A DNA stretch of 64,000 nt from positions 1 through 64,000 of the forward strand of contig NZ_BAJW01000005.1 of NCBI RefSeq assembly GCF_000613905.1, read 5' to 3'. Below, in pieces: positions 790 through 19,735 of this stretch; position 1 is the stretch's first letter, and the number at the start of each line of letters is the position of its first letter. The notes under the pieces are model-generated. The model did not search any database and was not told where the DNA came from. It saw only the letters and a list, made by a program, of their open reading frames with translations. Made by a program: the position numbers and the translations under genes. Source of the stretch: Acetobacter persici JCM 25330. GTDB lineage: Bacteria > Pseudomonadota > Alphaproteobacteria > Acetobacterales > Acetobacteraceae.

Positions 790-792
790 GAC

Positions 793-1068: not shown

Positions 1069-1074
1069 CGCGGC

Positions 1075-2250
1075 TTACCGGAACATCCGCACGGTGGTCG
1101 GCTCGTAGCCGGAGCCGTAATCGAGGAAGCGCGTGAGGTTCTCGCGGGCCTGCGCTTCGGCAGTTGCGACACGCGCGGCTTCGAGCGATTGCGCCCGGTT
1201 CTGCGCGGCGATGGCCGCCGTCAAGTCAGAAATCTGCTGGCTTTGCAATGCGAGGAGTTGATTACCGGCTTGGGTCGCCGCGACCGATTTGCGCTTGGCG
1301 AACCATTGACGCCGGATGCGGGTGAAGAGCTTCGTGGCGTCGGTCTTGTCGAGACAGATGGCGCGCGTCGCCCAGCGATATTCGAAGGCCTGCGCGTTAA
1401 GCTCGTCGAGTAGGCCCGGCCAGGTCGCGGTCGGGAATCCGACGATCGAGAGCGTGCGGAGATGCACCTCGCCAAGCTTTGGCGCGAGCCCGGTGACCAG
1501 CGGCTCGTTGGCTAAGTAGGCGTCGAGATGCATCGGGGTCTCGGGCACGCGGACGGATTGTCGCCGCGTCGAGATCGTCGAATGGAGATAAGACAGCGTC
1601 TCCGCGTCATCGAGCCAGGCGGCCTCCTTCTGCCAGCTATTGCGGATCGTCTCCCAGACCTGCTCCTGGCGAGCATGGTCCTGCGACACGGTGAGGGCCA
1701 TGAGATGCTTCAGCTCCATGCCGTCTTCGGCATAGATGTCGAGCAGCGCGGGCGAAACCGACGCGAGGCGCAGCCGCTGCTTCACGATGTTGACGTCGAC
1801 GAAGAACGCCGCGGCGATGTCCTCCTCAGTCATGCCCTTATCGCGCATGGACCGGAATGCGCGATACTGGTCGAGCGGATGGGCCGGCACGCGCTCGTCA
1901 TTCTCCGCGAGCGAGATTTCCTCCATCAGGATGCCGCTGTCGCTCGCGCCGACGACACAGGGAACCGGCGCGGTCTTGTTCAGGCGCTTCTGCTCCACCA
2001 GCATCGCCAGCGCCCGGTAGCGGCGGCCGCCGGCGGGCACCTCGAACATGCCGGTCTCCTGGCCTTCACCATCGCGAACGGGGCGGACATGCAGGCTCTG
2101 GATGAGACCGCGCCGCGCAATCGACGCGGCCAGATCCTCGATCGAGACACCGGCCTTCACCCGCCGGATGTTGGACTGGCTGAGCACCAGCTTGTTGAAG
2201 GGAATGTCGCGCGAGGACGACAGGGTGATCTTCTGAACGGCAGTTGCCAT
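1075..2250 (-). CDS. Chimeric ORF: ParB N-terminus + TrbE fragment + TrbJ C-terminus
   Basis: One uninterrupted 391-codon frame that looks like three unrelated proteins joined. Residues 1-209 are a ParB/RepB N-terminal region (EVPAGGRRYRAL box near 70, EISLAENDERV near 111-121, HTH-like region near 145-165). Residues about 210-325 match the middle of the conjugation ATPase TrbE (VRVPETP, TLSIVGFPTAT, RRQWFAKRKSVAA) and stop before the Walker A motif. Residues about 326-391 match the end of TrbJ (GNQLLALQSQQ). The fragments keep the order of complete elements (parB, then trbE, trbJ, trbK, trbL), so two internal in-frame deletions are the simplest explanation. ATG at 2250 has an AAGGAA ribosome site. 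A functional ParB is doubtful because its C-terminal dimerisation part is gone. Confidence 0.8.
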   Translation of the reverse strand: MATAVQKITLSSSRDIPFNKLVLSQSNIRRVKAGVSIEDLAASIARRGLIQSLHVRPVRDGEGQETGMFEVPAGGRRYRALAMLVEQKRLNKTAPVPCVVGASDSGILMEEISLAENDERVPAHPLDQYRAFRSMRDKGMTEEDIAAAFFVDVNIVKQRLRLASVSPALLDIYAEDGMELKHLMALTVSQDHARQEQVWETIRNSWQKEAAWLDDAETLSYLHSTISTRRQSVRVPETPMHLDAYLANEPLVTGLAPKLGEVHLRTLSIVGFPTATWPGLLDELNAQAFEYRWATRAICLDKTDATKLFTRIRRQWFAKRKSVAATQAGNQLLALQSQQISDLTAAIAAQNRAQSLEAARVATAEAQARENLTRFLDYGSGYEPTTVRMFR

Positions 2251-2276
2251 GTTCCTTACTCCGCGACGAGCGCCGA

Positions 2277-2333
2277 GAGCCTCTCTCTCGAACCCGAACT
2301 CGTCACGAAGCGAAGCGCCGCCCTCTCACTCTT
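2277..2333 (-). promoter_or_regulatory. Composite motif upstream of the parB-like gene (copy 1)
   Basis: Two short blocks on the plus strand, GAGCCTCTCTCTCGA (2277-2291) and CTCTCACTCTT (2323-2333), start exactly 46 bases apart. The same two blocks with the same offset occur upstream of the DUF932 gene at 3642 and 3688. Both copies precede a leftward gene, so they are probably a shared promoter or operator of the element's maintenance genes. The role is inferred from the conserved spacing only. Confidence 0.6.
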
Positions 2334-2423
2334 GGAGGGCAGCGCCACGGATACGGCGAAACGGAAGGGCACGAAGGCGCAAAGCCAGAGACACGGAAAA
2401 CCGTATCTCCGGCTTCACGGAAA

Positions 2424-3630
2424 TCAGGCCGCGCGATCGAGCAACTTCTTGGCCTTGCCCTCCAGTTCGAGCCGCGCATCCTGGTTGGTCTTTTCGCGGG
2501 CGACGGCGGTGATGCCAGCCACGAAATCGAAAATGGATTCCGGCGGGCGACCTTCTTCGGCCAGAACGGTCTCGATGATCTTGCCGGTCTCGGCCTTCGA
2601 GAATCCGCGCTTGCGCAGGAATTCGGTGCGGTCCTCATCGGATTTTGCGACGATCCGTTCGCGGGCGGCCTTGATGCCGTTGATGAAGGGCATCGGCGAG
2701 GAGTTCGCGAAGTTCAGCAGGGCCGGCGCCGCTTCGTGGGCGAAGCGCGACGCCGCGTATTTGCTATGGCGGATGGTGATTTCCTCGAAATCCTCCACGC
2801 CCCACAAGTTCCTGTTTTGGCAGACCGCGCGGAGATAGAAGCTCGCCATGCCGAGCGTCTTCGCGCCGACTTCGGAATTCCAGCAGTAAAAGCCGCGGAA
2901 GTAGAGGTCAGGCGATCCATCCGGGAGCGGCCGGCTTCGATGGGGTTGAGATCGTCCACGAGGAAGAGGAACACGTCGCGATCGGAGGCATAGAGCGTCG
3001 TCGTGTCCTTCGTGATGTCGACGCGGGGATTGTAGACGCCCGTCGACCAGTCCAGCACGCCGGCACTTTCCAGCGCGTGTCGCCAGTACCGTTGCCGGCA
3101 ATCCGCTGCACCGCCTCGACCAGCTCGTGATCGTAGATCCGGCCATAGTCGGGGCCGGTCACGGCGCGAAGCTCGATTCGGCCGTTGTCGGTTTCGAGCG
3201 TCTTGATCTGCTCGGCCCGATGCGAGGTCAGACCATATTGCAGATTGATGCCGGCAAGCGCGGCCGGGAGCTGACGGAGATAGGCGGCAGGTGCGCCGAC
3301 CTGGCTGGCGAGCTGACCGAAGCTCCAGTGCGTCGGCGCGACGGGCGTGTCCGAGCCAGGCAGAATGAGAGAGAGGCGCTCCGGATCGGTGCGGCTCGCT
3401 TCGACATGGATGAGCGCGGTTTCCACCACGCGCGTCCTGCTGCGTTCCGAACGGCTGCGTACGGAGTCCGCCAGCTCCGACAAGGACAGATAGCGCTCGT
3501 CGTCCGGGCGCGAGAACCATTCCGAGGAAACACGGCCGATCCGCTCACCGCGGCTGACGTCCACCTTGTAGCCACTGCTCATGTCGCGGCGCGCGTCGAG
3601 AACCTGCATGTTCATGGGATCAAACTCCAT
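2424..3630 (-). pseudogene. DUF932 family protein, broken by two frameshifts
   Basis: DUF932 proteins are common in conjugative elements and phages of alphaproteobacteria; their biochemical role is unknown. The product is spread over three frames: MEFDPMNMQV... to about 3060, then the VLDWSTGVYNPRVD frame to about 2926, then the LPDGSPDLYFRGFY frame to the stop at 2424. One missing base at each point restores a 402-residue protein of normal family length. ATG at 3630 is chosen as the first ATG of the conserved part; ATG at 3615 has a better-placed GGAG. The breaks resemble the single-base deletions seen in chromosomal genes of this window and may be sequence errors. Confidence 0.8.
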
Positions 3631-3641
3631 GACGGGCGCGG

Positions 3642-3698
3642 GAGCCTCTCTCTCGACACTCAACCCGTCATGGATCTCCGATCCGCTCTCTCACTCTT
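3642..3698 (-). promoter_or_regulatory. Composite motif upstream of DUF932 gene (copy 2)
   Basis: Second copy of the paired blocks found at 2277: GAGCCTCTCTCTCGA at 3642-3656 and CTCTCACTCTT at 3688-3698, again 46 bases start to start, with ACCCGTCA between them where copy 1 has ACTCGTCA. It ends 12 bases before the chosen ATG of the DUF932 gene. A shared regulatory site is inferred. Confidence 0.6.
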
Positions 3699-3710
3699 CT
3701 CGGGGCGTTG

Positions 3711-3776
3711 CGGGGATGTCCCCGCAGAAGGGGTCGGCCGAGACCTTGGCTCGGCCGCAGGGGAAGGCTTTCCCCT
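3711..3776. repeat. Three consecutive stem-loops between hamB and the DUF932 gene
   Basis: Three inverted repeats follow one another: CGGGGATGTCCCCG (3711-3724), CGGCCGAG/CTCGGCCG (3735-3757, 7-base loop) and AGGGGAA/TTCCCCT (3759-3776, 4-base loop). They lie in the 330-base gap after hamB and before DUF932 on the minus strand. They could be a structured leader of the DUF932 transcript, a termination zone for the hamAB operon, or protein-binding sites. No T-tract follows. Confidence 0.6.
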
Positions 3777-3959
3777 CCCGGGCTCCCAGATTGCGGCCAC
3801 ATTTCCCATTAGCGGGCCATTCGCTCCCAAACGGCGGGGATTCGGAGCTGGAGGCAGTTCGGCGACGCCGGTCTTCGAGTCTTGTCGTCGGCCACGGAAC
3901 CGGAGGGTCTCGACGAACAGCGTGAACCCAGGACGCGTAGGGCTTCATCATTCGCCCTC

Positions 3960-6900
3960 CTACACATTCCAAAGGTCGTCCGGGCCGAGATAGACGAGAT
4001 CGAGTTGTCCACCTTGTGCCGCGACTGTGGCCCGTAGAAGCCCACGGCGACCTGCGTTCAATGCGTAAGGGAGGACGCCATGTGACAATCCTTCGGGGGA
4101 CAGGACGAGAGGCTGGCCATTCCAGTGATATAGGGAAACCGGTGATCCTGGAGGCGGCGGCAAAGTGGTCCAGTTTACATTCGCCAAGTAGGTTCGCTCC
4201 GACCAAGTCTGGCTGGCGCCTGGAGCGAACTCCTGCGCGAAATCGAGCCAAAGGCTTCGTGTCTCGGGCGTTGGCCAGTCCGGCTGGTCGACAAAAGCGG
4301 CCACTTCAGGCGAACGGAGCCAAATTCTCAAGTCGTGGCCGGTCTCGAATGCCGCCCCGGTGTCATTTACGGCTTTGATAGCGGCGAGGCGCGAGTTGAA
4401 TCCAGCTTGCATCAGGATCGAGGCCGACCGGTTCATGGTGCCGGTTTCGACCGCCGACAGTGCTAGACCAAGCTCATGATCTTCTAACGCGGCAACCGCG
4501 CCGAGACCGCCAACTACATCGCCATTTGCGGCCGCTCGAACGCGTAGCGCCTCCATGGCCCACGGCAGCCGGTAAACAAGGCCATCTTCGATGAACCGCA
4601 AGCCGTCACCATCGCCATTGGCAACCAAGGCAGCCAGAGGCTCTCCGCGAAGCCAAAAGCGCAGAATGTCCCGCCAATTGCCGGGTAGCGGATCCGGCGA
4701 GAAGGGATGGAAAGGGAATACACGCTCGGCAATGCCGGTGATCGCAGCGATCGCCACATCGCTATCCCCAATAAGCAAAGCGCCGTTCGCCTCAACAAGC
4801 AACTGATTGGCCTCCGGTGCGACGGCATCCAGAGCTTGGCCTGCTGCCAAGCCAAGGCCCGCAAGGAAGTAGCCCTTGCGCTTCGCTGGGGTGGAGTTGG
4901 CCCAGATATGCCGACTTCGGGTCAGCAGCGTGGACTTAAAAGCTGTGCGAGCTTCGTTCGATGTTCGCAGAAGCCGTCGCTGCCATAAAGATGATTGTAG
5001 GATCGCGTCGAGCGTCGCGAGGTGCGTTTCCCATTGCTTCCGCGCGTCATCCCGGTCTTTAGGCTTTTCCCCCGGCACCTCTGGAAAGTTCCAAGCAGCC
5101 GCGTTGTTGACGACGTACTCCGTCAGATGATTGAGGTCGCCGCCGACGATTTTGTGCATGCGCAGGAGAAGGGCCGTGAGCAATTGGATCAGGCCGCTTT
5201 CCATCTCGCGCGCGCCCGGGTCTCCAATTAGCTGGACCCATTCGTTATGTTTTTTGCTCCGTCGATCCTCGAAGATCGGGAAAAGGACAAGGCCTTCGAC
5301 GTCGATATAGGCTCGGCCGGCGCGCCCAATGACATTCTTGAACTCCGAGACCTTGATCATCTCGCCGTTGCGATAAAGCGAGTGCATGACGACAGCGGTG
5401 GCCGACAGGTTCAGCCCTTGGGCAAGGGTCGGCGACGAGATCGTGACTTTGAGGATGCCGTCGCGAAGGAGACGCTCGACTTCCTTCCGGTAGGCGGTGG
5501 GCAGAGCGCCGTGATGGAGCGCAACGCCGAGCCGGAGGCATTTCAAAATATCGCTATTTGGGCCGAGCCATTCCTCTCCCAAAGCGATGGCCGTCTGGAG
5601 CACCGCAGGGTCCACTTCTAGGAGCGACGGCAGCGCGCCGCGTTCGTGCAAATCGACGATGACCTCGGCGTATGGCTCCACGCTCCGGCGTTGCGGGCAA
5701 TAGATGAGAACCGTTTGCCGGTCTTCGACCAGGCGCCAAGCCGTGGCGAGGCAAAGCTCTCGTTGGTCGCAGGGGAATATCTTCGTTCGCTTCCTTTTTG
5801 GTTTGACGAAAAGCTGCGGAATGAAGCCAGTAAAGAACCGAGGCACGAACGGGCGTTCGCCGTCGACACGGAGGTTCAGGCGTGCATTCGGGCTATTCCA
5901 ACTGACTTCTCCGAAACGGAGACGCGTTGGGCGCCAATCGTTTTTGACAGGCCCGCCAGCCTGATCGCGGCGCAGCCATGCGGAGAAATCCTCCAGCTGA
6001 TCTCCATCTGGGAGGATTGCCGAGAGGCACACGATCCGACGCTGATCGGCGTCAGGTCGGCGAAGCAAGCGCTGAATTTGGACTTCGTAACGAACTTCAC
6101 GTTCGCCTGGGCCGATCATATGGCCCTCGTCGAAAATCAGCAGACCGACATCGTCGAGCAGTGAAGGATCATTGCGAAGCGCGAAATCGATCTTCTCCGG
6201 TGTGGCGACCACGATGTCGCGTTCCCGAATAGCGTCTTCGTCGAAGCCGGAGACGCCGATGCTCCCATAAAGAGCCGAAATCGTCTTACCGAGTGGCCCA
6301 AAGATACGTTGGAGGTTCGCTTCCGTCTGGGCTGAGAGAGCCCTTAGCGGTGTCACAAAAATGACCCTCCGGCCGCCTGCAAGGCACCGAAGAATGCATA
6401 GCTCCGCGACACGGGTTTTGCCGGCGCTGGTCGGCAGTGAGACGACGAGATTATCGGACTGATTGACGGCGCGAGCCGCCGCCTCGATCTGCGATGGCCA
6501 GAGGTCGATTTCAGCCTTTGGCCGGACGCCAAGAGAGGCGATGAAAAGTGATCGCAAGCCGAGCCAGTCGGCAGCGGCACCGCCTGTGGGAATCAAGGGG
6601 ATCTTTTCATGAAACGTATTGGACCAGAGATCGGACAGAAGATGGATCGCGATGCGATGAGCCCACCATTGCGGAAGCAGGTTGAGCTCTGCACAGATGG
6701 CGAGGCTTTCCCGTAGGCGTCCGATCGCCTGATCGACCAAGGCACGTTCGCCCCGGTCGAGCGCCAGCAGGAAGATCGAGATGGCGCCGAAGAAGTTGTC
6801 GGTGAGGGCGATGTCTAGGCCTTCCCAAAGGAAGTCATGACCATCGCGTTCAGGAGCTTCTTGGCCAGCCGGTTCATTGTTTTCTTCAGCGAGCCGCGCC

Positions 6901-7433
6901 TGAAACAAGCCGGTGATCCGTGCGTCAGATCCTTCGCCGTTCAGACGATAATCATGCACAAGTGTACGCAAGGTCGTGATGTCCCTGCGCATCAGCAGCG
7001 CCAGAGTCCTTTCAAGCGGCGAGAAGTTCTCCTCGTTTACGACGATTGCGAGGAGCGAATAGGCCCGCGCCGAAAGCTGCGCGAGATGGTAGCTGGCGGC
7101 TGCCATCACGAAATGGAAGTCCCGATCCGACTCGCCGCGATTACCTTTGGCCATGACGGACTCAAGGGCGGTTGCCGCCTGCACAAAGGCGACCCGGGCC
7201 TGGGCGGGATCGCCATTCATCTCCAGCATTCGCAGGCCAAGGCCAAGTAGTCCGTAGGCGTAGCTGTGAAGATCGTAGCTGAGTTGCGGCGAGAATTGCG
7301 GCGCGTCGGGTGGAAGGACGCCGCCCCGCCAAATCATGGCGCGGGCTTGGCCTTGCGCGATGAGCCTGCCTCGAAAACCGGCTGCGGCCGCCTCGGTAAT
7401 GGCCGCTGAAATGGCGTCAGGGTTGGTTGGCAT
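3960..7433 (-). CDS. hamB: Hachiman-type defence helicase HamB
   Basis: A 1157-residue superfamily 2 (Ski2-like) helicase. Residues 1-310 are a helical N-terminal region. The helicase core has Walker A PTSAGKT (about 334-340), TPLRALS (motif Ia), ATPEKID, the DEGH box (about 435-438), SAILPD (motif III) and an IGRAGRAY motif VI in the second RecA domain; a long C-terminal region follows. In Hachiman systems HamB is the partner helicase of the HamA nuclease, and the pair protects against phages. The start at 7433 lies 17 bases inside the end of hamA, so the two are translationally coupled. No frameshift is present although the gene is long. Assignment rests on the partner gene and helicase type. 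Confidence 0.85.
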   Translation of the reverse strand: MPTNPDAISAAITEAAAAGFRGRLIAQGQARAMIWRGGVLPPDAPQFSPQLSYDLHSYAYGLLGLGLRMLEMNGDPAQARVAFVQAATALESVMAKGNRGESDRDFHFVMAAASYHLAQLSARAYSLLAIVVNEENFSPLERTLALLMRRDITTLRTLVHDYRLNGEGSDARITGLFQARLAEENNEPAGQEAPERDGHDFLWEGLDIALTDNFFGAISIFLLALDRGERALVDQAIGRLRESLAICAELNLLPQWWAHRIAIHLLSDLWSNTFHEKIPLIPTGGAAADWLGLRSLFIASLGVRPKAEIDLWPSQIEAAARAVNQSDNLVVSLPTSAGKTRVAELCILRCLAGGRRVIFVTPLRALSAQTEANLQRIFGPLGKTISALYGSIGVSGFDEDAIRERDIVVATPEKIDFALRNDPSLLDDVGLLIFDEGHMIGPGEREVRYEVQIQRLLRRPDADQRRIVCLSAILPDGDQLEDFSAWLRRDQAGGPVKNDWRPTRLRFGEVSWNSPNARLNLRVDGERPFVPRFFTGFIPQLFVKPKRKRTKIFPCDQRELCLATAWRLVEDRQTVLIYCPQRRSVEPYAEVIVDLHERGALPSLLEVDPAVLQTAIALGEEWLGPNSDILKCLRLGVALHHGALPTAYRKEVERLLRDGILKVTISSPTLAQGLNLSATAVVMHSLYRNGEMIKVSEFKNVIGRAGRAYIDVEGLVLFPIFEDRRSKKHNEWVQLIGDPGAREMESGLIQLLTALLLRMHKIVGGDLNHLTEYVVNNAAAWNFPEVPGEKPKDRDDARKQWETHLATLDAILQSSLWQRRLLRTSNEARTAFKSTLLTRSRHIWANSTPAKRKGYFLAGLGLAAGQALDAVAPEANQLLVEANGALLIGDSDVAIAAITGIAERVFPFHPFSPDPLPGNWRDILRFWLRGEPLAALVANGDGDGLRFIEDGLVYRLPWAMEALRVRAAANGDVVGGLGAVAALEDHELGLALSAVETGTMNRSASILMQAGFNSRLAAIKAVNDTGAAFETGHDLRIWLRSPEVAAFVDQPDWPTPETRSLWLDFAQEFAPGASQTWSERTYLANVNWTTLPPPPGSPVSLYHWNGQPLVLSPEGLSHGVLPYALNAGRRGLLRATVAAQGGQLDLVYLGPDDLWNV

Positions 7434-8193
7434 TCGCGATCACACGATCATAGACAGCGCCGACGAAGGCCGCATGGCCGTCGACGTGGAGACCAACGCC
7501 CCACTGGTTGATCTGCCCGGGATAGGCTTGAAGCGACTGCGTCAGCAACGCCTGCGGCGAGTTGCCCGAGAACGTGAACAATAGATGCTGGACACTCGCC
7601 AACGGGATGCCGTGACGCACCAGTGCGTCGTCGATTGCGTCTGCCAGGGGCTCGTTCGCGAGTTCAAGCAGGCGCGCTGATATGAATGACAGCGCGTGCG
7701 ATGAAGGCCGTCCATTGTCTTTGTCCAGACCAGCGCGCGCCTCCGTAAGGGTCTGCGCGCGGAGAGAGGCACGGCTCTTGGCCTCAGTCTTGAGAAAACG
7801 GAGCCGTTGAGTGGCCTGGTCAAGGATCATGCCGATGACATCGTCTCCTCGCATTGCCATGTTGCGATGATCTTTCCACCGCAGACGTTTGATCGGCACG
7901 CGATAGCCGCTATGTGCGTCGATCCATTCGGTCGCGTAGATTTCACCGAGATCGCCGGAACGGATCTGCTTTGTCTGAGGCAACAACCCTGTGACTAGGT
8001 CGGCAGCCCCCGGCTTGCCGAGGCGACGTAATGCGCGGGCGACTCGCTCTTCGGCCGCATAGTGACCAGGCACCGCTGTGGCCGTCAGCTGGACGCCTGT
8101 CGGGCGATCGACGGCGCGGCCGGTCTTGATGTGGAGGTGGTGGTTGCCGAGTGGAGTATCGGCTCCGTCACACCAGTCGTTGAATTGCACCAT
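7417..8193 (-). CDS. hamA: Hachiman-type defence nuclease HamA (DUF1837)
   Basis: A 258-residue protein matching the HamA/DUF1837 pattern: SGDLGEI near residues 79-85, RLRWKDHRNMAMRGDDVIG near 103-121, then FLKTEAKSRASL near 133-144. The E84, D117/D118 and E137-x-K139 set resembles a PDDEXK-like catalytic site. HamA is the effector nuclease of Hachiman, acting with the HamB helicase encoded directly downstream. ATG at 8193 has GAGAAGG about 9 bases upstream. A third gene begins 573 bases further upstream and ends 18 bases before hamA, suggesting a three-gene operon rather than the usual two. Confidence 0.85.
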   Translation of the reverse strand: MVQFNDWCDGADTPLGNHHLHIKTGRAVDRPTGVQLTATAVPGHYAAEERVARALRRLGKPGAADLVTGLLPQTKQIRSGDLGEIYATEWIDAHSGYRVPIKRLRWKDHRNMAMRGDDVIGMILDQATQRLRFLKTEAKSRASLRAQTLTEARAGLDKDNGRPSSHALSFISARLLELANEPLADAIDDALVRHGIPLASVQHLLFTFSGNSPQALLTQSLQAYPGQINQWGVGLHVDGHAAFVGAVYDRVIANANQP

Positions 8194-8211
8194 GCGCTCA
8201 TACCTTCTCGA

Positions 8212-8766
8212 TTAAGCGCGGCGCAGCATTCGCGGGATGTGGACGCGGTGAAAACCGTGGGTCTGCACTTGTCGGCGAAGCTTGGGGGTATCATTGACGC
8301 CGAACGCGATAGCCGCCTTCAGGGGGCTGGCAAAGGTAGCGTAGAAGGTCCAGCGAGCGTCCTTCGGCAGTGGCGCGTTCTGGCGTCGGTCGGTGATGAC
8401 AACATCGCGGGGGTCCTTCGTATTGCGAAAGGCATGGAAGGTGATCCAGTCGGGCCGCTTGTACCGTGCCGCCTTGCTGAACGGCACCGACTGAACCTTC
8501 ACGTCGCTTTGGTCGAGAACCCAATCGCGCTGCTCTAATATCTGCCTGACCATGTGGCCGACCATCTGCTTAACGCGGTCAATCAGGACGTCTTCGCGGA
8601 ACTCCTCCAGAAGTTGTTCTTCAATGCCTTCGACGGCGGGCTTTCCGAGCTCTGAGGCTGTCTCAAGGCGAGCGATGATGGCAGGCCGCGTGAGAAACGA
8701 CCAAATGCGCTGACCGATGTCGGACTCCGACAGCGAAGCGAATTTTTCCGGATTGTAGCGAAGCAT
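8212..8766 (-). CDS. Unknown 184-aa protein, first gene of the hamAB operon
   Basis: I do not recognise a named family. The start at 8766 is set by a strong AAGGAGG eight bases upstream. The N-terminal half is helical and acidic; the C-terminal half is basic with a pattern YKRPDWITFHAFR, DPRDVVITDRRQ and a GFHRVHIPRMLRR tail that suggests a small nucleic-acid-binding fold. It lies 18 bases before hamA in the same direction and is probably co-transcribed. It could be an extra component or regulator of the Hachiman system, or an independent cargo gene. Its promoter region faces that of the XRE regulator. Confidence 0.7.
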   Translation of the reverse strand: MLRYNPEKFASLSESDIGQRIWSFLTRPAIIARLETASELGKPAVEGIEEQLLEEFREDVLIDRVKQMVGHMVRQILEQRDWVLDQSDVKVQSVPFSKAARYKRPDWITFHAFRNTKDPRDVVITDRRQNAPLPKDARWTFYATFASPLKAAIAFGVNDTPKLRRQVQTHGFHRVHIPRMLRRA

Positions 8767-8950
8767 GATCGGGCCTCCTTGACCGGGCATAATTGGCCGG
8801 TCATAAATGCCTAGTCAAGGGCGCCGCACATTGAATCGCTCAGTCTGCCGGTTTGCCGCTCGTGTGCCGCTCCGATTCCGGTCGGATGCCTCACGCTGCG
8901 TGGCTCCTCCATGTAGATTTGGGTCATCGAAAACGCGGAATGAGGTTGAG

Positions 8951-9826
8951 ATGAAGAAGGTCGTGCCGAACGGGAAGGTCGTGAAAGCCTTGAGGGAGCA
9001 GCTCGAGAGACTGTCGACCCAAAAGGAAATGGCGAATGAAATCGGGGTCAGCGTTCGGATGCTTCGGATGATCGAAAATGAGAATGCGCCGATTACAGTA
9101 ACAACGGCCGATCGGCTGGCAAAAGCGCTGCAAGTTCACCGCGAGCGGATCATCCTCGTCTCGGAGCCTTTGGAGATGGCGCCGACGGGAAGCGCGCCGG
9201 ACGTCTTCTCCGCGCTGATGGAGGATGAAGACCGGCTCATACCCCGCAACGACTATGATATCGCCCGAGCGACCACGGATGAAGGCGCGCTCTATACCGA
9301 GGCAGCTCGCTCACACGACGTGGCCTGCATCATCGAGACGACGCTTGATGAGGAAACGGGTGCCTATGCGCAGGAACTGTTCGATATCCTCGTCGGCTTG
9401 TCCTGGTCGCAACGCGATATTCTCGTGGACATTCCCCCAGCTACGGAGATCGCGGTTCGCCGGCGTATCCGACAGCTCATCGTTCTTCTCAAGGGCAACG
9501 ACATCTGGATCTATCAGACCTCTGTCTTGAGGAGATTGCCGGAGCGCTACACGGTCGCGCCGGCAGACGAGCCTTGCACGTATCAAAGCCGTCAGGTCGT
9601 GGCGCTGGGTCCGCCGGGTGAGTATGGCGAGACCACCATGCGTGTGCCGATCGATCACGGCCAGCCGTTCATCCTTCCGGCGTGGCGCAAGCTTCGCAAG
9701 GGCGACAATGAGGGGTTGGCGACGCTCCATAACGGGAAGCAATCGTTTGATCATCAAGCTGTTGGGCGCGCGCTGAAATCGAATAAATGTGCATTTGGCG
9801 GAAGCCGGGGGGCATATGAAGTTTAA
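8951..9826 (+). CDS. XRE-type HTH protein, first gene of a three-gene cassette
   Basis: A 291-residue protein. ATG at 8951 is chosen because the conserved part starts there (MKKVVPNGKVVKAL) with a GAGG site just upstream; the frame is open earlier but reads as low-complexity sequence. Residues about 10-60 form a Cro/C1-type helix-turn-helix (STQKEMANEIGVSVRMLRMIE). The C-terminal 220 residues do not match a family I know. Its stop overlaps the next start by 11 bases, so it is coupled to the 74-aa gene and the Rad50-like ATPase. The likely role is regulator of the cassette, and possibly of the divergent hamAB operon across the shared 184-base intergenic region. Confidence 0.75.
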   Translation: MKKVVPNGKVVKALREQLERLSTQKEMANEIGVSVRMLRMIENENAPITVTTADRLAKALQVHRERIILVSEPLEMAPTGSAPDVFSALMEDEDRLIPRNDYDIARATTDEGALYTEAARSHDVACIIETTLDEETGAYAQELFDILVGLSWSQRDILVDIPPATEIAVRRRIRQLIVLLKGNDIWIYQTSVLRRLPERYTVAPADEPCTYQSRQVVALGPPGEYGETTMRVPIDHGQPFILPAWRKLRKGDNEGLATLHNGKQSFDHQAVGRALKSNKCAFGGSRGAYEV

Positions 9827-10040
9827 GCTGGAAAATACTTTCGAGGACAATCTCGCCTTGTTTCAGGCTGAGGCCGAGCAAATCGATCCTGACTGCGCGA
9901 AGATCCTCTTCGACAATATGCATCTCCTGGATTCGGGAGGTGACACCGCGCCAAGCCGAGCAACGATCGGCGAGTTTCACAAGGCGGTACTGGCTGCACT
10001 TAATGGTCTGTCCAACCCAACAGGCGAGGACAAGGCATGA
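9816..10040 (+). CDS. Small 74-aa protein between regulator and Rad50-like ATPase
   Basis: Unknown acidic protein beginning MKFKLENTFEDNLALFQAEA. ATG at 9816 is preferred over 9789 because a GCCGGGGGG run precedes it. It overlaps the regulator by 11 bases and the ATPase gene by an ATGA, a tight translational coupling that argues for a shared complex. Candidate roles are antitoxin, inhibitor or adaptor for the ATPase; none can be chosen from sequence alone. Confidence 0.65.
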   Translation: MKFKLENTFEDNLALFQAEAEQIDPDCAKILFDNMHLLDSGGDTAPSRATIGEFHKAVLAALNGLSNPTGEDKA

Positions 10041-12526
10041 CGCGGTATTTCCTAGGCAGCTTATCGATCGAGGGCTTTCGCGGGATCAACAATGACGGCG
10101 ACCCGCTCGTCCTCAAATTCAAATCCGACGCCGTCAACTCGGTCCATGCGCCGAACGGGGTCGGTAAAAGTTCAATATTCGAAGCCGTCTGTTTCGCGAT
10201 CCACGGCATCGTTCCGCGCCTGAAGGCGCTCCAGGAAGCCGAGCAGGGCGACAGCTATATCGTCAATCGCTTCCATCCCGGGCAGCAGGCGACGGTCGAC
10301 CTGATATTCGCCAGCGACGACGGGTCGCCGGATGTGGCGATCAAGGTGGTGCGGTCCGCCAACGGCGCGCGCCTTGTGACTTCTCCCAGCGGTCATGCTG
10401 ATCCGCAGCAATTTCTGGCAAGTCTGCAGGAGGATTTTGTCCTCGTTGACTATAATCGGTTCGCGAAGCTGATCGACATCTCCGCCTTGGAGCGGGGGCG
10501 TTCTTTCGCATCGCTCGTGGGACTGAGCCGATATTCGCGCCTGCGCCAGGCCTTCGACGGCGCCAAGCGAACGCAAAACATCAACGGTGATCTGGGGCTC
10601 TCCGCGCTAGATGCTGAGGTGACCACAGGGGCGCGCGCGTTGAGCGCGATCGAGCGGCGTGTCATCGCCGCCCACGACGAGGTCGCCGGGGCGGGAGGCG
10701 CCGCCGTCGATAAGCTTTCCGATTTGAAGGCGGCGGTGACAACCGCCTTGTCCGCCATCGCCTTGCTCAAGCCATTGATCGGCGAGGCCTCGGTCATGGA
10801 TCTCGATTTCGACGCCGCGGAGCTGGCGATCGAGAAGGAGGAAGGCGGGGAAGCGCGCAAAATGCTGGATGCGCTGACCACCTCGGTCACGTCGCTATCG
10901 GGGCTAGAAGTCACGGTGGAGGAACTGGCTGACCTTGATCGGCTGCTTGAGCTGGCCGGAAGGAGAGACGAAGCGGTGCGCAGCGTTGGCGCGGAAGCAT
11001 TGCAAGCCCTTTTGCGCGATGCGCTGGCTGTGGTGTCCGGCGCCGATTGGCACGACCCGAATCAATGTCCAGTTTGCGAGGCGAAAGGCAGTGTCCCCCT
11101 AAAACCGCGGCTGGAAGGCAAGATCGCTAAATACGATGCCGCCGCCCAGCTAGGCGCCGAACTTGTCAAGGATGTCGCCACGGCGCCTGGGATCGCGAAG
11201 CTCCGCCAGGTTGAAGAGGCGGCGGCCATGGCGATCGCAACGGGCGATCGACTGCACGTCGCGTTCGATTTGGCGGCCAAGAAGGGCGATGTGGCGACCT
11301 CCGACCTGGAGGGCATCAAGGCGCGTCTCGGGGTTCTTGAAACGCAGCGCGGCGAGACTCTTGCTCGGGTGCAGGAAGAGGCTGACGCATTGCAGGCGCG
11401 GTTGCCGCCGTCATTGGTGCAGGTGACCCGCATCCTCAGTTTCGCAAAGCAGTTCCGCGATGCCGTGCTGGAATACGAGAGCGGTGCGCCAGCGCTCAAG
11501 GCGAAACAGGACAAGCTCAAGGTTCTGAATCGTTGGAAGACGTTCATCACGCGTGCCGGCCAGAGCTTCGCCGACGCCGAGGCCGCGCTGGCTAACGAGC
11601 GGATTGCCGAGATTCAGACCGCTTGCCAGGATCTGTTTGGTCGGTTCGTGCGCGGCGGGCCTGATGTGAAGCCGACCCTGAGCCGGGCGCAGAACAGCGA
11701 GAACGTTGATCTGAAGCTCGCGGACTTCTTCGGCCTTCAGGACCTCAGCGCCCGGGCTCTCCTCTCGGAAAGCTATCGGAACGCTGTGGCAGCCGCGATT
11801 TTCCTGGCGGCTGCGACCAAGCACAGCGGCGTTCCGCGCTTCATGGTACTTGACGACGTGACGTCCAGCTTTGACGCTGGTCACCAGTTCGCGTTGATGG
11901 ACGCGGTGCGGACGTTGCTACGCTATGGCGCAGTGCCGGACGGGCTGCAGTTCATTTTCTTGAGCCATGACACCAGCCTGGAGAAATACTTCGACAAGCT
12001 GAACGGCACCGCGGATTGGCATCACCAGAAGTTGCAGGGCATGCCTCCGAAAGGGCGGCTCATGGTATCGGCTCAAGAGGCTGATCGTCTCAAGGCGCAG
12101 GCGTTGCAGCATCTGAATGCTGGCCAGATCGATATTGGTGCGCCGTTTCTGCGGCAGTATCTCGAATACAAGCTGGGACAGATCATCGCCAAGCTGGAGG
12201 TCCCGGTTCCACCGGACTATGCCACCCGTGGCGACAAGCGGACGCTCTCGACCTACATCGACGCGATCGGCGAGGCAGTGAAGCTTTATCATGCGGCCAA
12301 TCGGTGTGTGCTGACGCCTCAGCAGATCACCGATCTCCAAAACCATCATGTGCCATCGATCGTTGGCAATTTCGTCAGCCACTACGAGACCGGCGCAGGT
12401 ACTCCCTTCAACGCTTATGCATTGCTGGGTGTGCTGCAGAGCATCGATGCGCTGGCAGACTGCTTCACATATGTTGATCCAGCCAACAACCAGAAGCGCT
12501 TTTACCGCCGGTTGGACCGGCGCTAG
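10037..12526 (+). CDS. Rad50/RloC-like ATPase with zinc hook and HEPN/anticodon-nuclease-like C-terminus
   Basis: An 829-residue ABC/SMC-type ATPase. Visible parts are Walker A PNGVGKSS (39-46), helical arms broken by a zinc-hook CPVC (344-347), an ABC signature-like LLSESYRNAV (about 574-583), Walker B FMVLDDVTSSFD (602-613) and an H-loop LSHD (642-645). A further 185 residues follow the ATPase. They contain R706-x3-E710 (LRQYLEYKL) and N778-x3-H782 (GNFVSHY), the arrangement I recall from AAA_13/PrrC/RloC-type proteins and HEPN RNases. Such proteins act as phage- or damage-triggered tRNA nucleases. A nuclease function is therefore plausible but inferred. It is the last gene of the cassette, and the opposing gene ends 2 bases downstream. 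Confidence 0.75.
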   Translation: MTRYFLGSLSIEGFRGINNDGDPLVLKFKSDAVNSVHAPNGVGKSSIFEAVCFAIHGIVPRLKALQEAEQGDSYIVNRFHPGQQATVDLIFASDDGSPDVAIKVVRSANGARLVTSPSGHADPQQFLASLQEDFVLVDYNRFAKLIDISALERGRSFASLVGLSRYSRLRQAFDGAKRTQNINGDLGLSALDAEVTTGARALSAIERRVIAAHDEVAGAGGAAVDKLSDLKAAVTTALSAIALLKPLIGEASVMDLDFDAAELAIEKEEGGEARKMLDALTTSVTSLSGLEVTVEELADLDRLLELAGRRDEAVRSVGAEALQALLRDALAVVSGADWHDPNQCPVCEAKGSVPLKPRLEGKIAKYDAAAQLGAELVKDVATAPGIAKLRQVEEAAAMAIATGDRLHVAFDLAAKKGDVATSDLEGIKARLGVLETQRGETLARVQEEADALQARLPPSLVQVTRILSFAKQFRDAVLEYESGAPALKAKQDKLKVLNRWKTFITRAGQSFADAEAALANERIAEIQTACQDLFGRFVRGGPDVKPTLSRAQNSENVDLKLADFFGLQDLSARALLSESYRNAVAAAIFLAAATKHSGVPRFMVLDDVTSSFDAGHQFALMDAVRTLLRYGAVPDGLQFIFLSHDTSLEKYFDKLNGTADWHHQKLQGMPPKGRLMVSAQEADRLKAQALQHLNAGQIDIGAPFLRQYLEYKLGQIIAKLEVPVPPDYATRGDKRTLSTYIDAIGEAVKLYHAANRCVLTPQQITDLQNHHVPSIVGNFVSHYETGAGTPFNAYALLGVLQSIDALADCFTYVDPANNQKRFYRRLDRR

Positions 12527-12527
12527 G

Positions 12528-13289
12528 CTAGATTTCGGGGAGGGAGGGATCGACGAGTTCGAGCATTCCCTCCGCGACCATCAGATCAATGGCGAGGCCG
12601 AGGGCCTCGGTTTCGTTCTCGGTGAAGCGCGCGTTGTCATATCGGGTAGCGAGGTCGATGCTGAGCTCTTCGATCAGGCGCACGACCATGTAGATGTGCA
12701 GCGCGTAGGACCGTCGGGCGAGCCCTTCATCGGTCTCCGGAAAGTAGCGCGTCAGGTTCGTTGGTCCGGGGAGGCCATCCATCTCGCCGTCCCATTCTGT
12801 CGCGCTCTGCACGATGTCATGTTGCGAAACGTGGGCGGCGGCCGACAGCCCGCCGTAGAGCCGGGCGAGTGATTGTTCCAGGGCGGCGATATTCGGGGCG
12901 CCATTGAGTTTTCGCCGGTTTGCACGAACTGCCTTGAGCTGAGCGAGTATCTCAAGTTCCTGGCGCAGCATCGCGTGCGCTTGCAGGTAGCGGGCCTCTG
13001 CGATGGCTGTCTCACAAGGGGCCATCCCGATCACGAAGGCGGCGAAGAGGGCGTCACGCTCGAAAGCGGTCCGCTCACCTTCGACAACGGTCCCGTTGAT
13101 ACGCAACAGGCCGCTGGCGAGGACGCCCGTCACGAGCAAATGGGCATCGATCAGCCGTCCGTAGACGGCCATCGATTTGGCCTTGGCTTGGTCGCCATAA
13201 ACCTTCTGGACGGCATAGAGGGTCGCGGCTTGCTCGATCAGTTCCTGTTTGTGACGCTCGATCGCCTCCTCGTTCAGGGCATCAGTCAT
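12528..13289 (-). CDS. Unknown helical protein (DUF5677/HEPN-like?) downstream of YhcG nuclease
   Basis: A 253-residue, largely helical protein with no family I can name securely. The middle contains AMLRQELEILAQLKAV (about 145-160) and YGGLSAAAHVSQHDIV, an R-helix followed by a His-bearing helix that recalls HEPN-like or DUF5677 proteins. Its start overlaps the end of the YhcG nuclease gene by 8 bases, so they are translated together. It is convergent with the Rad50-like gene, with only one base between the two reading frames. A toxin, immunity or accessory role to YhcG is possible. Confidence 0.65.
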   Translation of the reverse strand: MTDALNEEAIERHKQELIEQAATLYAVQKVYGDQAKAKSMAVYGRLIDAHLLVTGVLASGLLRINGTVVEGERTAFERDALFAAFVIGMAPCETAIAEARYLQAHAMLRQELEILAQLKAVRANRRKLNGAPNIAALEQSLARLYGGLSAAAHVSQHDIVQSATEWDGEMDGLPGPTNLTRYFPETDEGLARRSYALHIYMVVRLIEELSIDLATRYDNARFTENETEALGLAIDLMVAEGMLELVDPSLPEI

Positions 13290-14627
13290 CGGTGTCTATT
13301 GCCCTGAGTTCGGCCAGGAAGATCGTGCCGACCTCCACCGCCCGCTTCGCTACGTCGGTGTCGACGTCCACGCCGTGTGAGGCTTCGTTCATCGCCCGCA
13401 GGGAGCCAAGCATCTGCTCGGTGCTGGCCGGCGCCAGGCCCTGCCGCTGGAGGTCACGCAGCATGTTCATGATGCCGACTGGTCGATTGACGACGACGCC
13501 TCTCGCGGCGGCGAGGTTGCGGAGGGCGCGCTCGATCTCGATGCGGAGCTTGACCACTGACATCAGCGGGAATTCTCGTGCGAATTCTTCGACGGTCGGC
13601 AATTCATGCTGGAGCTGAGGCGGTAGTGCGGGTGACAGACGGTACTGGGCCACGCCCATCGGCTTGCTGCTGTCGCGCAGGGCATATTCGACGATCACCT
13701 CGTTGCGGCCCTTGCACAGAATGATGCCGATGGTCGGCTGATCGTCCCTATGCCGAAGCTGGTCGTCGACGGCAGAGAGGTAAAAGTTCATCTTGCCCGC
13801 GAATTCAGGCTTGAAGTCCTCGATCTTCAGCTCGATCACGACGAAGCACCGCAGCCGAAGGTGATAGAAAAGCAGGTCGAGATAGTAATCCTGCCCGCCG
13901 ATCTCGAGATGGTATTGGCTGCCGACGAAGGCGAAGCCCTTGCCGAGTTCGAGGATGAGCGAACGCAGATGCTCGATCAGCCCGCGTTCGAGGTCGCGTT
14001 CCAACATGTCGGGGCCGAGCGCGAGGAAGTCGAATGTGTAAGGGTCTTTGAGGAGCTGCTGGGCAAGCTCGGACTGTTGGGCAGGAAGGGTTCGCGAGAA
14101 GTTGGTGAGCGCGCTGCCTTGGCGGGCGAACAGATCGCTCTCGATCTGGTGGACGAGGACGGGACGGCTCCAACCATGTTCAATGGCCTGTCGAGCGTAC
14201 CATGCGCGTTCCTCGGTCGCCTTGACGCTATCGAGTAGGCTGACGTTATGGCCCCAGGGTAATTGTGCAATGACCCGTTGCACAAATTCGCTGTCCGGCC
14301 AGGCGTCAGCCAAAGCGCGCATATATTTCAGGTTTCGAGCCGAGAGGCCGGTCATTTCAGGGAAAGCCCGGCGGAGATCCTCAGCCAGGCGGTCGATGAC
14401 CTTGGCGCCCCAACCCTCACGCCCCTGCCGGGCCAGGATATCACGGCCGATGCCCCAGTAGACAGAATCAGTTCACGATTGACCGATAGGCTGGCGCGAT
14501 AGCGCGCCTCGGCGATCTTCTGCTTCAAGTCACCGACGAAGGCAGAATAGCTTTGCGCGTCGATCTCGGCGGCCGTTTTCGCGGCCTTGGCGCGGCGGGG
14601 CGTCGGTTTGGCCGGAGGGCGGCTCAT
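13282..14627 (-). pseudogene. YhcG/DUF1016 PDDEXK nuclease, one frameshift
   Basis: DUF1016 (YhcG) proteins have an N-terminal winged-helix-like domain and a C-terminal PDDEXK nuclease domain; their targets are not established. The N-terminal domain (YSAFVGDLKQKIAEARYRA) starts at ATG 14627. The frame is lost near 14461 (LIL then STGAS in place of LLYWGIG) and continues as the ORF from 14355 (MTGLSARNLKYMRAFA-like region). The nuclease core is intact: GSQYHLEIGGQDYYLDLLFYH, then FVVIELKIEDFKPE, giving D..E-x-K. One added base gives 448 residues, the family's full length. The start overlaps the integrase stop as ATGA, an unusual coupling of a nuclease to an integrase. Confidence 0.8.
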
Positions 14628-15865
14628 GCGGCCGCCTTCAGACGCTTCTTCGCCAGCATGGCGCGAACGAATTTGTCCCATTTCGCCATGCCGGCGCGCT
14701 TCTCGACCATGTAGTGCCAGCGATCGTAGTGCTTGGAGCTGACGTCCTGTAGCGCATGGTTCTGGAGGCGATCGCGGATTTCCTTCGGCACGCCCGCCTT
14801 GCCGGCCAGCGTTTTGAAGGTGCGGCGGAGATCGCGGTTCGTCGCATAAGGGATCACGCCGCGGTCCCGCTGGCGCCAGACGAAGCTATAGAGCGTGCCG
14901 TGGCTGACGGGCTGCTTCGGGTCTTTGGCCGAGGGGAAGAACCAGCCGTATTCGTTCGGCTTGATCGACTCGATCAACTCGGCGGCGAGCAGAGGCACGG
15001 GAACGGCGTGAGGCTGCTCGTTCTTGGTCTTGGACCAGTCGATGATACGCTCTTTGGCGTCCCACTGATCGACATGGAGCCGCGCGATCTCCTCGACGCG
15101 CTGGCCGGTCAGCAAAATAAGCTGCACAGCGCGCGGATAGGAGGGGTGAACCGGCGTGTCGGGGCACTCTAGCCAGCGATAGAGCTGCACGAACTCGTCT
15201 TCGTCGAGCCAGCGAGTGCCTTTGACCTTGGGTTCAGTCGGGATGCCCGTCGCCGGATTGAAAGGAAGCCGGAAGCGACGAGAGGATTGCTGCCGATAGT
15301 CGTTGTCGGACTTCATGCCCCAACTAAAGGCCGCATGGAGGTATGAGCGCACATGGTCGGCCATCGACTTTGCGCCGCGCTCGTAGATCGGACGGATCAG
15401 CTCGATAATTTCCTCGGCCTCGATCTCGCGGGCGAGGCGGTTACGTCCGAGCGTGTCGGCGATCTTGTTGAGGCCTTTTTCTGTTTCCTTCCAGGATGGC
15501 TTGCCCGCATCCTTGAGCGCGGCGACATAGCCCTCGAACAGATCGGTGACGGTGCCGGGGCGAGTGTCGGTGGCGATCTTGATGCTACGCCCCTTCTGGA
15601 TGACGTCCGCGAAGTCGCGCTTGTAGATTTCGCGGGCTTGCGCGAGCGACATTGAGGGATAGGCGCCGATCTTCTTCTTGGTGCGTTTGCCGTCCCGCCA
15701 TTGCTGAGCCATCCAGTCAGCGGTGACACGTTTCGGCATGGGCTTGAGAACAAGAACGAGACGGCCGGTACCGCGCCCTTCGCCATCGGCGAGGTTCTCT
15801 TGCTTGCGACTGATCTCGACGCGCTTCAGCGCATGTCGAATCGCGGTATCGGTTAGGGCGGGCAT
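14624..15865 (-). CDS. Tyrosine recombinase (P4-like integrase) of the element
   Basis: A 413-residue site-specific integrase that inserts and excises the element. ATG at 15865 is chosen for its AAGGAGG site; the earlier open stretch is not conserved. The N-terminal arm-binding domain (residues about 1-90) has KKKIGAYPSMSLAQAR, and a core-binding domain follows. Catalytic elements are R in GQRVEEIARLH, K in SKTKNEQPHAVPV, an NRDLRRTFKTLAG box in place of H-x-x-R, and the final SKHYDRW tyrosine. It lies at the chromosome border, as usual for integrative elements, and overlaps the next gene (YhcG) by ATGA. Confidence 0.9.
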   Translation of the reverse strand: MPALTDTAIRHALKRVEISRKQENLADGEGRGTGRLVLVLKPMPKRVTADWMAQQWRDGKRTKKKIGAYPSMSLAQAREIYKRDFADVIQKGRSIKIATDTRPGTVTDLFEGYVAALKDAGKPSWKETEKGLNKIADTLGRNRLAREIEAEEIIELIRPIYERGAKSMADHVRSYLHAAFSWGMKSDNDYRQQSSRRFRLPFNPATGIPTEPKVKGTRWLDEDEFVQLYRWLECPDTPVHPSYPRAVQLILLTGQRVEEIARLHVDQWDAKERIIDWSKTKNEQPHAVPVPLLAAELIESIKPNEYGWFFPSAKDPKQPVSHGTLYSFVWRQRDRGVIPYATNRDLRRTFKTLAGKAGVPKEIRDRLQNHALQDVSSKHYDRWHYMVEKRAGMAKWDKFVRAMLAKKRLKAAA

Positions 15866-16020
15866 AGCGTTTTCCTCCTTTCCGGAACTGGGATCGGTCG
15901 AGGAGAAGCAGGGATCGCTAGCTGGGAGCGGAAGGCCGTTTTCTACCCCTTTTACAGCCCCCAATTTGCCAAAACCGCCCCCACTACGCAATACCCAAAA
16001 ATCGCTTTTTTATCAGTGAT

Positions 16021-16689
16021 TCAATGTGCTTGGGCGTGATCTAGCGTGATCGAAGAGGGGATAGTGGGATGGTTATGGACCAGCACCAGAAGACGCGCTT
16101 CAAGTTCCAGCGCCCGCCGCATGACTTCTCTTGGGTAAATCGGGGTATGGTCCACTGTGCCGCGCCCCAGCATTTCATCCGCCAGCAGGCGGTGCGCGGC
16201 ATCCAGAAATAACACCCGCACCTGCTCAACCCGCTCATGCGCCAGCACCGCACTCAGATACGCCCTGAGCTGCGCCCTGTCCGCCAGCACTCCGGCACGG
16301 CTAAGGCGCGCTTTGTGCAACCGCACGGCGGCTTCCTGCACAAGACGCAGCGTAACCCGGAGCGCCCGGGGTCTGCCCCACCGCCGCCAGCATCGCCTGA
16401 TCCGGCGCGGACAGGAGCGCCGCCAGAGACCCGAACTGACGCAGCAGAGACGTCGCCACATGTCCGCAGACGGGTGTTTGGGCGCAGTCAACGTAATAAG
16501 CTGTGTCAGAACAGTGTGGTCATCCGGCAGACCAGCCGAAACCCGTGCGTCCGCCAGACCCGGAAAAAACGGCAGGTCAGGCAAGGGGGGCCGCTCCGGC
16601 ACCGTCTCGGCCTGAAGCCTGAACCCGGCAATATCCGCCAGTTCCGACCGGGACTGCCGCCCTTTGCTTTTAGGGAGACGACTCACCAT
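16021..16689 (-). pseudogene. RadC-like JAB-domain gene, cut off by the element and internally frameshifted
   Basis: RadC-family proteins carry a helix-hairpin-helix region and a JAB/MPN metalloprotease-like domain; their cellular role is unsettled. Start ATG 16689 overlaps the end of the preceding RadC-like gene. The middle (about 16385-16460) reads properly only in another frame (LLRQFGSLAALLSAPDQ), implying two compensating shifts. The C-terminal part (LADEMLGRGTVDHTPIYPREVMRRAL, LVLVHNHPT) is good RadC sequence but stops at the HNHP metal motif, followed by 13 unrelated residues. About 40-50 residues are missing. The break lies beside the integrase, so this gene is the likely insertion site. 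Confidence 0.7.
16034..16051. repeat. Paired GCGTGATC repeats at the element border
   Basis: GCGTGATC occurs at 16034-16041 and again at 16044-16051, separated by TA, exactly where RadC similarity ends. One helical turn between repeats fits integrase binding sites or part of the attachment core. The other border is outside the window, so the attachment duplication cannot be confirmed. Confidence 0.4.
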
Positions 16690-17458
16690 GCCTGCTGTTC
16701 CAGATGCCGGAAACTGCGCCACCGGCGGCCTTTCAGCACCACATGGTCATGCATGGTGACAGCCAGCAAAGGCGCTGCCTGCAACAAAGCCTGCACAAGG
16801 GCACCATCATGCAAAAGCTGGCGGTCCGGCTGCACGTCAGCCCCGGCCAGCCTGACAGTAATCAGGGAACAGGCATGCAACGCCAGCGCGCGCTGCATAA
16901 TGGCTGAGACAACCTGCGGTACCGGAATGGACTCACACCCCTCCCCACGCATCGCCGGCTCTCAGTCGGCAGTACTTCGTCGGCCAGCAAATGGTTCCGG
17001 CTATCCAGAAACAGAAGATGCAGAGAGCCCGCCTCAGCCGTTGCCAGATGCGCGGCACAATAGGCCAGAAGCTTATCCCAGCTTCCAAGGTCAGAGCGCA
17101 CCGGCTCCTCCGGCGCGCCAAGCCTGTCTGCCGCCAGCGGCACCAGCCCCAGCAGGGCAGCATTGCTGCGCGTTGCCCCGGCGGCTTTCAGAGCCTCGGA
17201 CGGGGCTTCCAGCACCGCCGCCAGAGACCCAAACTGATTGATCAGCGCCTTGGCCAGAGGTTTGGTATCCCGCCGGGGCACCCCCGGAAACAGAAGCATT
17301 TCCAGCAGTTCGTAATCAGCCAGAGAGGCCGCACCGGCACTCAGCACCCGTGCGCGCATCCGCTGCCGGTGCCCCGCAGGCCCGGTGGACGAAAAAGGGA
17401 CACCCCCTTCCCCGCTTTCAAAACTGCTCGGTTTTTCTCCTCTTTCAGAGGATACCAT
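16683..17458 (-). pseudogene. RadC-like protein without the JAB metal motif, one frameshift
   Basis: N-terminal RadC sequence is clear (GHRQRMRARVLSAG, DYELLEMLLFPGVPRRDTKPLAKALI, FGSLAAVL, then LHLLFLDSRNHLLADEVL). Near 16951 the frame shifts; adding one base continues into MRGEGCESIPVPQVVSAIMQRAL and ends MHDHVVLKGRRWRSFRHLE. The expected HxHPSGDPxPS metal-binding segment is replaced by TVRLAGADVQPDRQ, so metal binding looks lost even in the repaired protein. It is translationally coupled to the second RadC-like gene. Repaired length is 258 residues, slightly longer than typical RadC (about 220-240). Confidence 0.7.
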
Positions 17459-17512
17459 GCCACTGCTCCGATTGGCCTCAGGCTTTCAAGACGATATAAG
17501 GGCAAAGTGAAT

Positions 17513-19734
<2,222 letters not shown>

Positions 19735-19735
<1 letters not shown>

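Follow-up and report, generated by a model that had tools for sequence, protein, structure and literature searches.

The window examined here, a 64,000-nucleotide stretch of the Acetobacter persici JCM 25330 genome (contig NZ_BAJW01000005.1, positions 1 to 64,000 of the forward strand), encodes a 74-residue protein and, coupled to it, an 829-residue Rad50/SMC-like ATPase with a predicted C-terminal HEPN domain. The conserved unit is these two genes, which we interpret, with a probability of roughly 0.6, as a two-gene abortive-infection module of the RNase-guard type. An initial annotation had proposed a three-gene cassette in which a helix-turn-helix (HTH) regulator precedes the pair. All three open reading frames (ORFs) are real and lie on the + strand where they had been placed, and the motifs of the ATPase are likewise where it had them, except that Walker A spans residues 38-46 instead of 39-46. 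The features are as follows.

8951..9826, + strand: HTH_3 protein (Pfam HTH_3, E value 4e-9), an accessory gene of its own clade
9816..10040, + strand: 74-residue small protein (ORF), core gene 1
10037..12526, + strand: 829-residue Rad50/SMC-like ATPase with a predicted C-terminal HEPN domain (AAA_23, E value 1.1e-10), core gene 2
10148..10174, + strand: Walker A motif APNGVGKSS, residues 38-46
11066..11077, + strand: CPVC zinc-hook motif, residues 344-347
11762..11773, + strand: ABC signature LSES, residues 576-579
11840..11875, + strand: Walker B motif and D-loop, residues 602-613
12074..12523, + strand: predicted HEPN domain, residues 680-829 (from a model of residues 658-829)
12152..12166, + strand: R706-x3-E710 (RQYLE)
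12368..12382, + strand: N778-x3-H782 (NFVSH)

The small partner gene

Homologues of the ATPase were collected from genome contigs (23 loci), plasmids (19 records, 8 + 6 of them read) and whole genomes (7 further core loci). All 42 close-family loci tested have a small gene, placed directly upstream of the ATPase gene or fused with that gene. The coupled small gene of the initial annotation holds up, and it accompanies the ATPase. It was recognised in all 31 of the loci L002-L032 (26 by BLAST; L027, L029 and L031 by position or annotation; L030 and L032 as a fused N-terminal domain), in all seven of L034-L040 (two stand-alone, L036/L062 from ORF reading, and four fused), and by position or annotation in four plasmid loci (L068-L071). 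L072 and L073, the latter annotated as a shortened coding sequence, lay outside the profile test for the small domain, and L067 did not enter the analysis.

The stop codon of the stand-alone small gene falls within ATGA (26) or GTGA (5) at 31 junctions, one in the window and the others in 30 loci; in L028 the ATPase start as annotated lies 12 bases further on. The partners are 57-83 residues long, and their identities correlate with those of the ATPases (r 0.97 over 30 loci). The window protein belongs to no Pfam, NCBIfam or PADLOC family, and none of 24 small proteins has a convincing Pfam or PADLOC match (best PADLOC E value 0.037, none to LmuC). Such a tiny gene is easily overlooked in annotation: in Rhodococcus and R. 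rhizogenes plasmids the small ORF is present, yet the gene table, incomplete by its own description, lists no gene for it.

The small domain is fused to the ATPase in six of the 42 loci. Run against these six proteins, its profile gave E values of 9.2e-12 to 4.6e-6; against 18 RloC-type proteins the same profile reached an E value of 0.02 at best. Five fused proteins are represented in a tree of 36 rows, from which near-duplicates and partial loci were omitted, and they form one clade with support of 100/100. This fusion in one clade favours the view of the small protein as a fixed subunit with a regulatory role. A toxin-antitoxin pair, consisting of a labile small antitoxin and an ATPase-HEPN toxin with no partner system, would also place a small coupled gene upstream of a HEPN-type effector and would suit the location on plasmids and islands; however, permanent fusion would be odd for a labile antitoxin, and the coupling to restriction-modification (R-M) genes in several lineages also speaks against this explanation, which we consider unlikely.

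The HTH gene

The HTH gene was not upheld as a fixed third member. Of 38 loci, 10 have it, all of them among the 31 loci L002-L032; L034-L040, where about 1.5 kb of flank was covered, gave no match, and the HTH protein has no match in the plasmid collection that contains 19 records of the ATPase. The HTH-bearing loci are confined to one clade of the tree, which also includes two loci without the gene (L010 and L068). Of the overlaps described in the initial annotation, the ATGA between the 74-residue and 829-residue ORFs stands. The 11-base overlap between the HTH and 74-residue ORFs is not a design feature, because one base is absent at window position 9724 relative to two near-identical copies (L002 and L017, about 99.5% identical), in which the HTH ORF runs to position 9696 of the locus and the small gene begins at 9780. 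The deletion shifts the C-terminus of the HTH protein, and the frame runs past its usual end into the small gene. Another 1-bp deletion relative to the same two copies, at window position 14462, breaks a YhcG/PDC-S02 nuclease gene into two ORFs (13282-14355 and 14352-14681); a sequencing or assembly error at both places is therefore possible. A single three-component system of HTH protein, small protein and ATPase would fit the finding that most of the clade to which the window belongs keeps the three genes together, but given the distribution of the HTH gene and the origin of its overlap this proposal is very improbable. The HTH protein probably controls the module in the window.

The ATPase and its conservation

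The claim of a Rad50-like ATPase with a zinc hook was confirmed by the AAA_23 match and by conservation. Both hook cysteines and residues R706, E710, N778 and H782 are the same in every one of 23 aligned sequences (the window protein and 22 homologues of 33-97% identity). Both R-x3-E and N-x3-H are kept in all 36 distinct ATPases (35 by pattern and L070 by reading), so the residues singled out in the initial annotation as diagnostic are indeed conserved, and in most members the histidine of the second motif is directly preceded by serine. ATPase, hook and tail are kept together in full-length homologues. A model of the full-length protein was weaker than that of the tail (predicted local distance difference test score, pLDDT, 73.5; predicted template modelling score, pTM, 0.34), and its Foldseek matches were SMC, Rad50 and Lamassu LmuACB chains.

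The C-terminal tail

The tail is predicted to have the HEPN helical fold. Modelled alone (residues 658-829, 15 sequences) it reached a mean pLDDT of 82.5, and the best VIA-align rows were the HEPN structures 1o3u (Z 8.9, root-mean-square deviation 3.0, 108 residues aligned) and 1wol (Z 8.2, root-mean-square deviation 3.0, 105 aligned), where a Z under about 13 may reflect the mere common arrangement of helical bundles. HEPN is named in 7 of the top 20 VIA-align titles, and several other rows (Csm6, SO_3166 and MntA-HepT) are likewise HEPN proteins. Two chains of 2q00 and one entry for the HEPN protein 2hsb made up the top three Foldseek rows for the tail, at E values of 0.26-0.40 that are not significant alone. 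A Pfam search of 23 tails and a profile search of PDB gave nothing convincing. The HEPN-type tail suggested earlier is supported at the level of prediction.

Relation to RloC

The match to the PrrC/RloC anticodon nucleases asserted in the initial annotation holds in part. It stands for the ATPase, the hook, the R-x3-E motif and the predicted HEPN tail; it fails for the AAA_13 family (PF13166), to which the ATPase scores 20 bits against a cut-off of 36, and for the gap of 71 residues between E710 and H782, which lies outside the Glu-x36-52-His of RloC (PMC2610378). The tail profiles compared directly do not match significantly, and comparisons that use distant tails give a weak match. The protein was not filed as RloC because of the AAA_13 score below cut-off and the Glu-His gap outside the published range.

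Profile comparisons drew on 18 RloC-type proteins, 14 of them for tails (L047, L051, L052 and L056, truncated or lacking the motif, were excluded) and 11 of the 18 for full length (L044, L045 and L058 were excluded too, as truncated; L042, a fragment, was unused). The full-length profile matched the AAA_13/RloC-type proteins with a probability of 98.6 and an E value of 5.1e-16 in one comparison. Global alignment placed R706-x3-E710 onto the R-x3-E of RloC with low per-column confidence and left the second motif unaligned. The tail compared with the RloC tails gave a probability of 0.2 and a score of 13.2, lower than the reversed control (19.5) and than one of five shuffles (14.7). With the tails of distant family members (described below) added, the score was 20.6 against a maximum of 17.2 in 100 column shuffles, at an E value of 0.02 and over the R-x3-E stretch only. 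The distant tails alone matched the RloC tails with a probability of 6.4 and an E value of 0.0057, with R-x3-E and the histidine motif in register. One AAA_13 query found no PDB chain at an E value of 0.01.

An annotated small gene coupled to the ATPase start was found in 0 of 4 RloC-type plasmid regions, a control that is weak because the plasmid gene table is incomplete; the closest upstream gene on the same strand encodes a recombinase and is 133 bases off, in L090. A divergent RloC anticodon nuclease, to which the small gene would be a nonessential helper, could account for the zinc hook, the R-x3-E, the Ser-His of most members and the full-length profile match to AAA_13. The low AAA_13 score, the long gap, the poor tail match and the contrast between 0 of 4 RloC-type regions (in that incomplete table) and 13 of 13 distant loci with a coupled small gene make this explanation improbable.

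Distant family members

One whole-genome match (L033/L074, E value 9.8e-21) led to 57 plasmid records, of which 12 were read together with L074. All 13 of these distant loci, which include three haloarchaea and one Bacteroidota plasmid, have a gene of 57-80 residues directly upstream of the ATPase gene with an overlap of 4-26 bases, the overlap in L074 resting on an ATPase start chosen by the analyst. The small proteins of the window group and of the distant group are not clearly alike in alignment. Both R-x3-E and N-x3-H were seen by eye in the tails of 11 of the 13 distant members, and the tail profiles of the window family and the distant group match with a probability of 97.4 and an E value of 1.6e-11, both motifs being in register (L085, which has no tail, was omitted from the distant alignment). 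In one haloarchaeal locus (L082:3805-6469) the small gene and the ATPase-HEPN gene lie between pglX and pglZ, annotated as BREX-5. Beyond the N-x3-H region the 12 tailed distant members (L074-L084 and L086) carry an additional CxxC, in most cases accompanied by another pair of cysteines; the window family does not have this CxxC.

Gene neighbourhoods and the host element

The genes surrounding the cassette in the window are as follows.

3960..7433, - strand: HamB of Hachiman, a neighbouring system (E value 0)
7417..8193, - strand: HamA of Hachiman (PADLOC, E value 3.5e-116)
8212..8790, - strand: 192-residue protein assigned to neither a Pfam nor an NCBIfam family, its gene divergent from that of the HTH protein
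14624..15991, - strand: tyrosine integrase of the host element, adjoining the RadC-like gene
16021..16722: RadC-like gene beside the integrase gene

Hachiman adjoins the cassette on the opposite strand, as had been reported, and is present in 7 of the 31 loci L002-L032. Defence genes are often near related copies, where the small gene and the ATPase travel together. In a neighbouring clade (L012-L015) 22-24 bases separate the end of a type III res gene from the small gene that follows; the proteins of L012 match REase_III (E value 3e-186) and MTase_III (E value 2e-227), L013-L015 are at least 94% identical to L012, and a methylase gene (N6_N4_Mtase) precedes res in L012 and L014. L062 has a type III res gene (REase_III, E value 1.4e-294) whose stop codon shares one base with the start of the small gene. 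The gene order is thus mod-res-small-ATPase in L012 and L014 and res-small-ATPase in L062, in these relatives only and not in the window. Elsewhere an Eco57I methylase and a T5orf172-ResIII protein are encoded (L016, with L018 similar), or a DEAD helicase and a T5orf172 protein (L019 and L060, and likewise L061 by position). Annotated type I R-M, DpnII R-M, DUF262 or restriction endonuclease genes lie near five plasmid copies (L026, L028, L029, L030 and L069), and an integrase (L020, L021 and L024) or FRG protein gene (L010) lies ahead at a distance of at least 121 bases. Judged from these neighbourhoods, the module is associated with changing defence systems.

A block of about 11 kb (window about 4999-16200) is about 99.5% identical in Ancylobacter dichloromethanicus and in a Rhizobiales metagenome-assembled genome. 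The common block terminates at 16161-16197 in eight relatives. No tRNA attachment site was found in window positions 1-20000, the right end of the shared block lying instead by the RadC-like gene next to the integrase. Since neither viral contigs (0 relatives among 77 candidate stretches) nor phage records yielded relatives, a phage origin is not supported. The ATPase is sparsely distributed, being found in 2 of 398 genomes of the phylum (one of them the window's own) and 8 of 395 in the order.

Three further observations concern adjacent genes. The 192-residue gene and the HTH gene are retained together in 9 of the 31 loci, two of which (L006 and L007) have no Hachiman match. A 253-residue gene at window 12528-13289, without Pfam, NCBIfam or PADLOC family, is found in 4 of the 31 related loci. 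In L011:19-9761, type III REase-like, TmtA-like, MkoA-like helicase and HTH genes stand in a row before the small gene and the ATPase gene.

Proposed mechanism and its weighing

In the RNase-guard module that we favour, the Rad50/SMC-like ATPase, probably dimerised via its zinc hook, would sense DNA or the condition of a nearby system that attacks DNA. The 57-83-residue partner would act as a stoichiometric subunit with a regulatory role, holding or coupling the ATPase and the C-terminal HEPN domain. Once a phage had broken or blocked the partner system, an ATP-driven rearrangement would free the putative HEPN site (R706, E710, N778 and H782), which would then cut RNA, most likely tRNA, so that growth stops. 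In the window the module would back up Hachiman, probably under control of the HTH protein. This mechanism is proposed by analogy with PrrC and RloC; complex formation, the trigger, the RNA target and the defence activity are inferred.

Several observations weigh against this reading, among them the low VIA-align scores and the weak agreement with RloC tails, with and without distant tails, given above. Foldseek alone found no match to the tail under an E value of 0.001. The canonical HEPN motif R-x4-6-H is absent from the window tail, which has N778-x3-H782 with asparagine in the usual place of arginine. Among distant members, L079 lacks R-x3-E and has a tail that reads RNEVGAH, and the ATPase of L085 (haloarchaeal, 3822-5968) ends before the HEPN tail. 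Three plasmid copies (L027, L031 and L071) have no annotated defence gene nearby. Lastly, the top PADLOC match of the ATPase is LmuB (E value 6.9e-17), over the shared SMC head, no model being a good fit.

Two explanations draw on these observations. A DNA-repair relative of SbcC/Rad50, in which a non-catalytic HEPN tail binds RNA and no defence system is involved, would agree with the Rad50-like head and hook and with the tailless L085; the invariant polar residues at the predicted site, the defence neighbours and the sparse distribution speak against it, and we hold it to be distinctly unlikely. A relative of Lamassu/ABC-3C, with the effector transferred to the ATPase and the small protein in the role of middle component, is consistent with the LmuB match, with the LmuACB chains among the best Foldseek matches of the full model, and with the position of the small gene before the ATPase, where the middle component LmuC lies in the Lamassu operon (PMC10586767). 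The LmuB match is to the shared SMC head, however, the small proteins match no PADLOC model, and no separate LmuA-like gene was found in front, the genes there being HTH, R-M, integrase or others; we regard this relationship as doubtful, and the locus was not filed as Lamassu because it has no LmuA.

The RNase-guard module may represent a widespread defence family, as yet without a name, that occurs in both bacteria and archaea. In evolution it would connect RloC, with its single gene, to Lamassu, with its three, and it would be slotted in interchangeably behind type III R-M, Hachiman, BREX and further systems that target DNA. To this tentative proposal we give slightly less than even odds. 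Literature searches recognised no description of the pair of small protein and ATPase in the portions of the sources that were available, and absence from print is not claimed. The findings suggest a little-studied alarm that may stop infected cells. If this is true, the module links the RloC/PrrC RNase guards with the Lamassu SMC complexes and offers a minimal system of two proteins, or one fused protein, in which to study how a toxic RNase is controlled by SMC heads. Because the partner systems change, the guard hypothesis can be tested directly.

Comparison with known systems

RloC shares with the window family the Rad50-like ATPase, the CxxC hook and a C-terminal domain with R-x3-E and a Ser-His motif, and in several RloC-type loci an asparagine stands four places before the histidine, as in the window ATPase; it differs in that the window family has a constant small partner or a fused domain. 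In PrrC and RloC the ABC-ATPase holds a HEPN anticodon nuclease, and PrrC is a second-line guard of the EcoprrI R-M system (both from PMC3710099, the former also from PMC2610378). PrrC with EcoprrI therefore resembles the type III operons of the window's relatives in coupling an ABC-ATPase-HEPN protein to an R-M operon, whereas the window family has a zinc hook and its own small subunit and is partnered with type III R-M, Hachiman or other systems. The PADLOC candidate PDC-S06 consists of one gene, and two AAA_13 controls fall under its model (E values 2.1e-277 and 3.7e-164), whereas the window ATPase reaches only 7.4e-8. Lamassu/ABC-3C (LmuABC) has an SMC-like ATPase with a small gene beside it and a DNA-sensing logic in common with the proposed module, but in the window the predicted effector domain is on the ATPase and not on a separate LmuA, and similarity to LmuC is not detectable. 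The module is best read as working like RloC and PrrC while being arranged partly like Lamassu.

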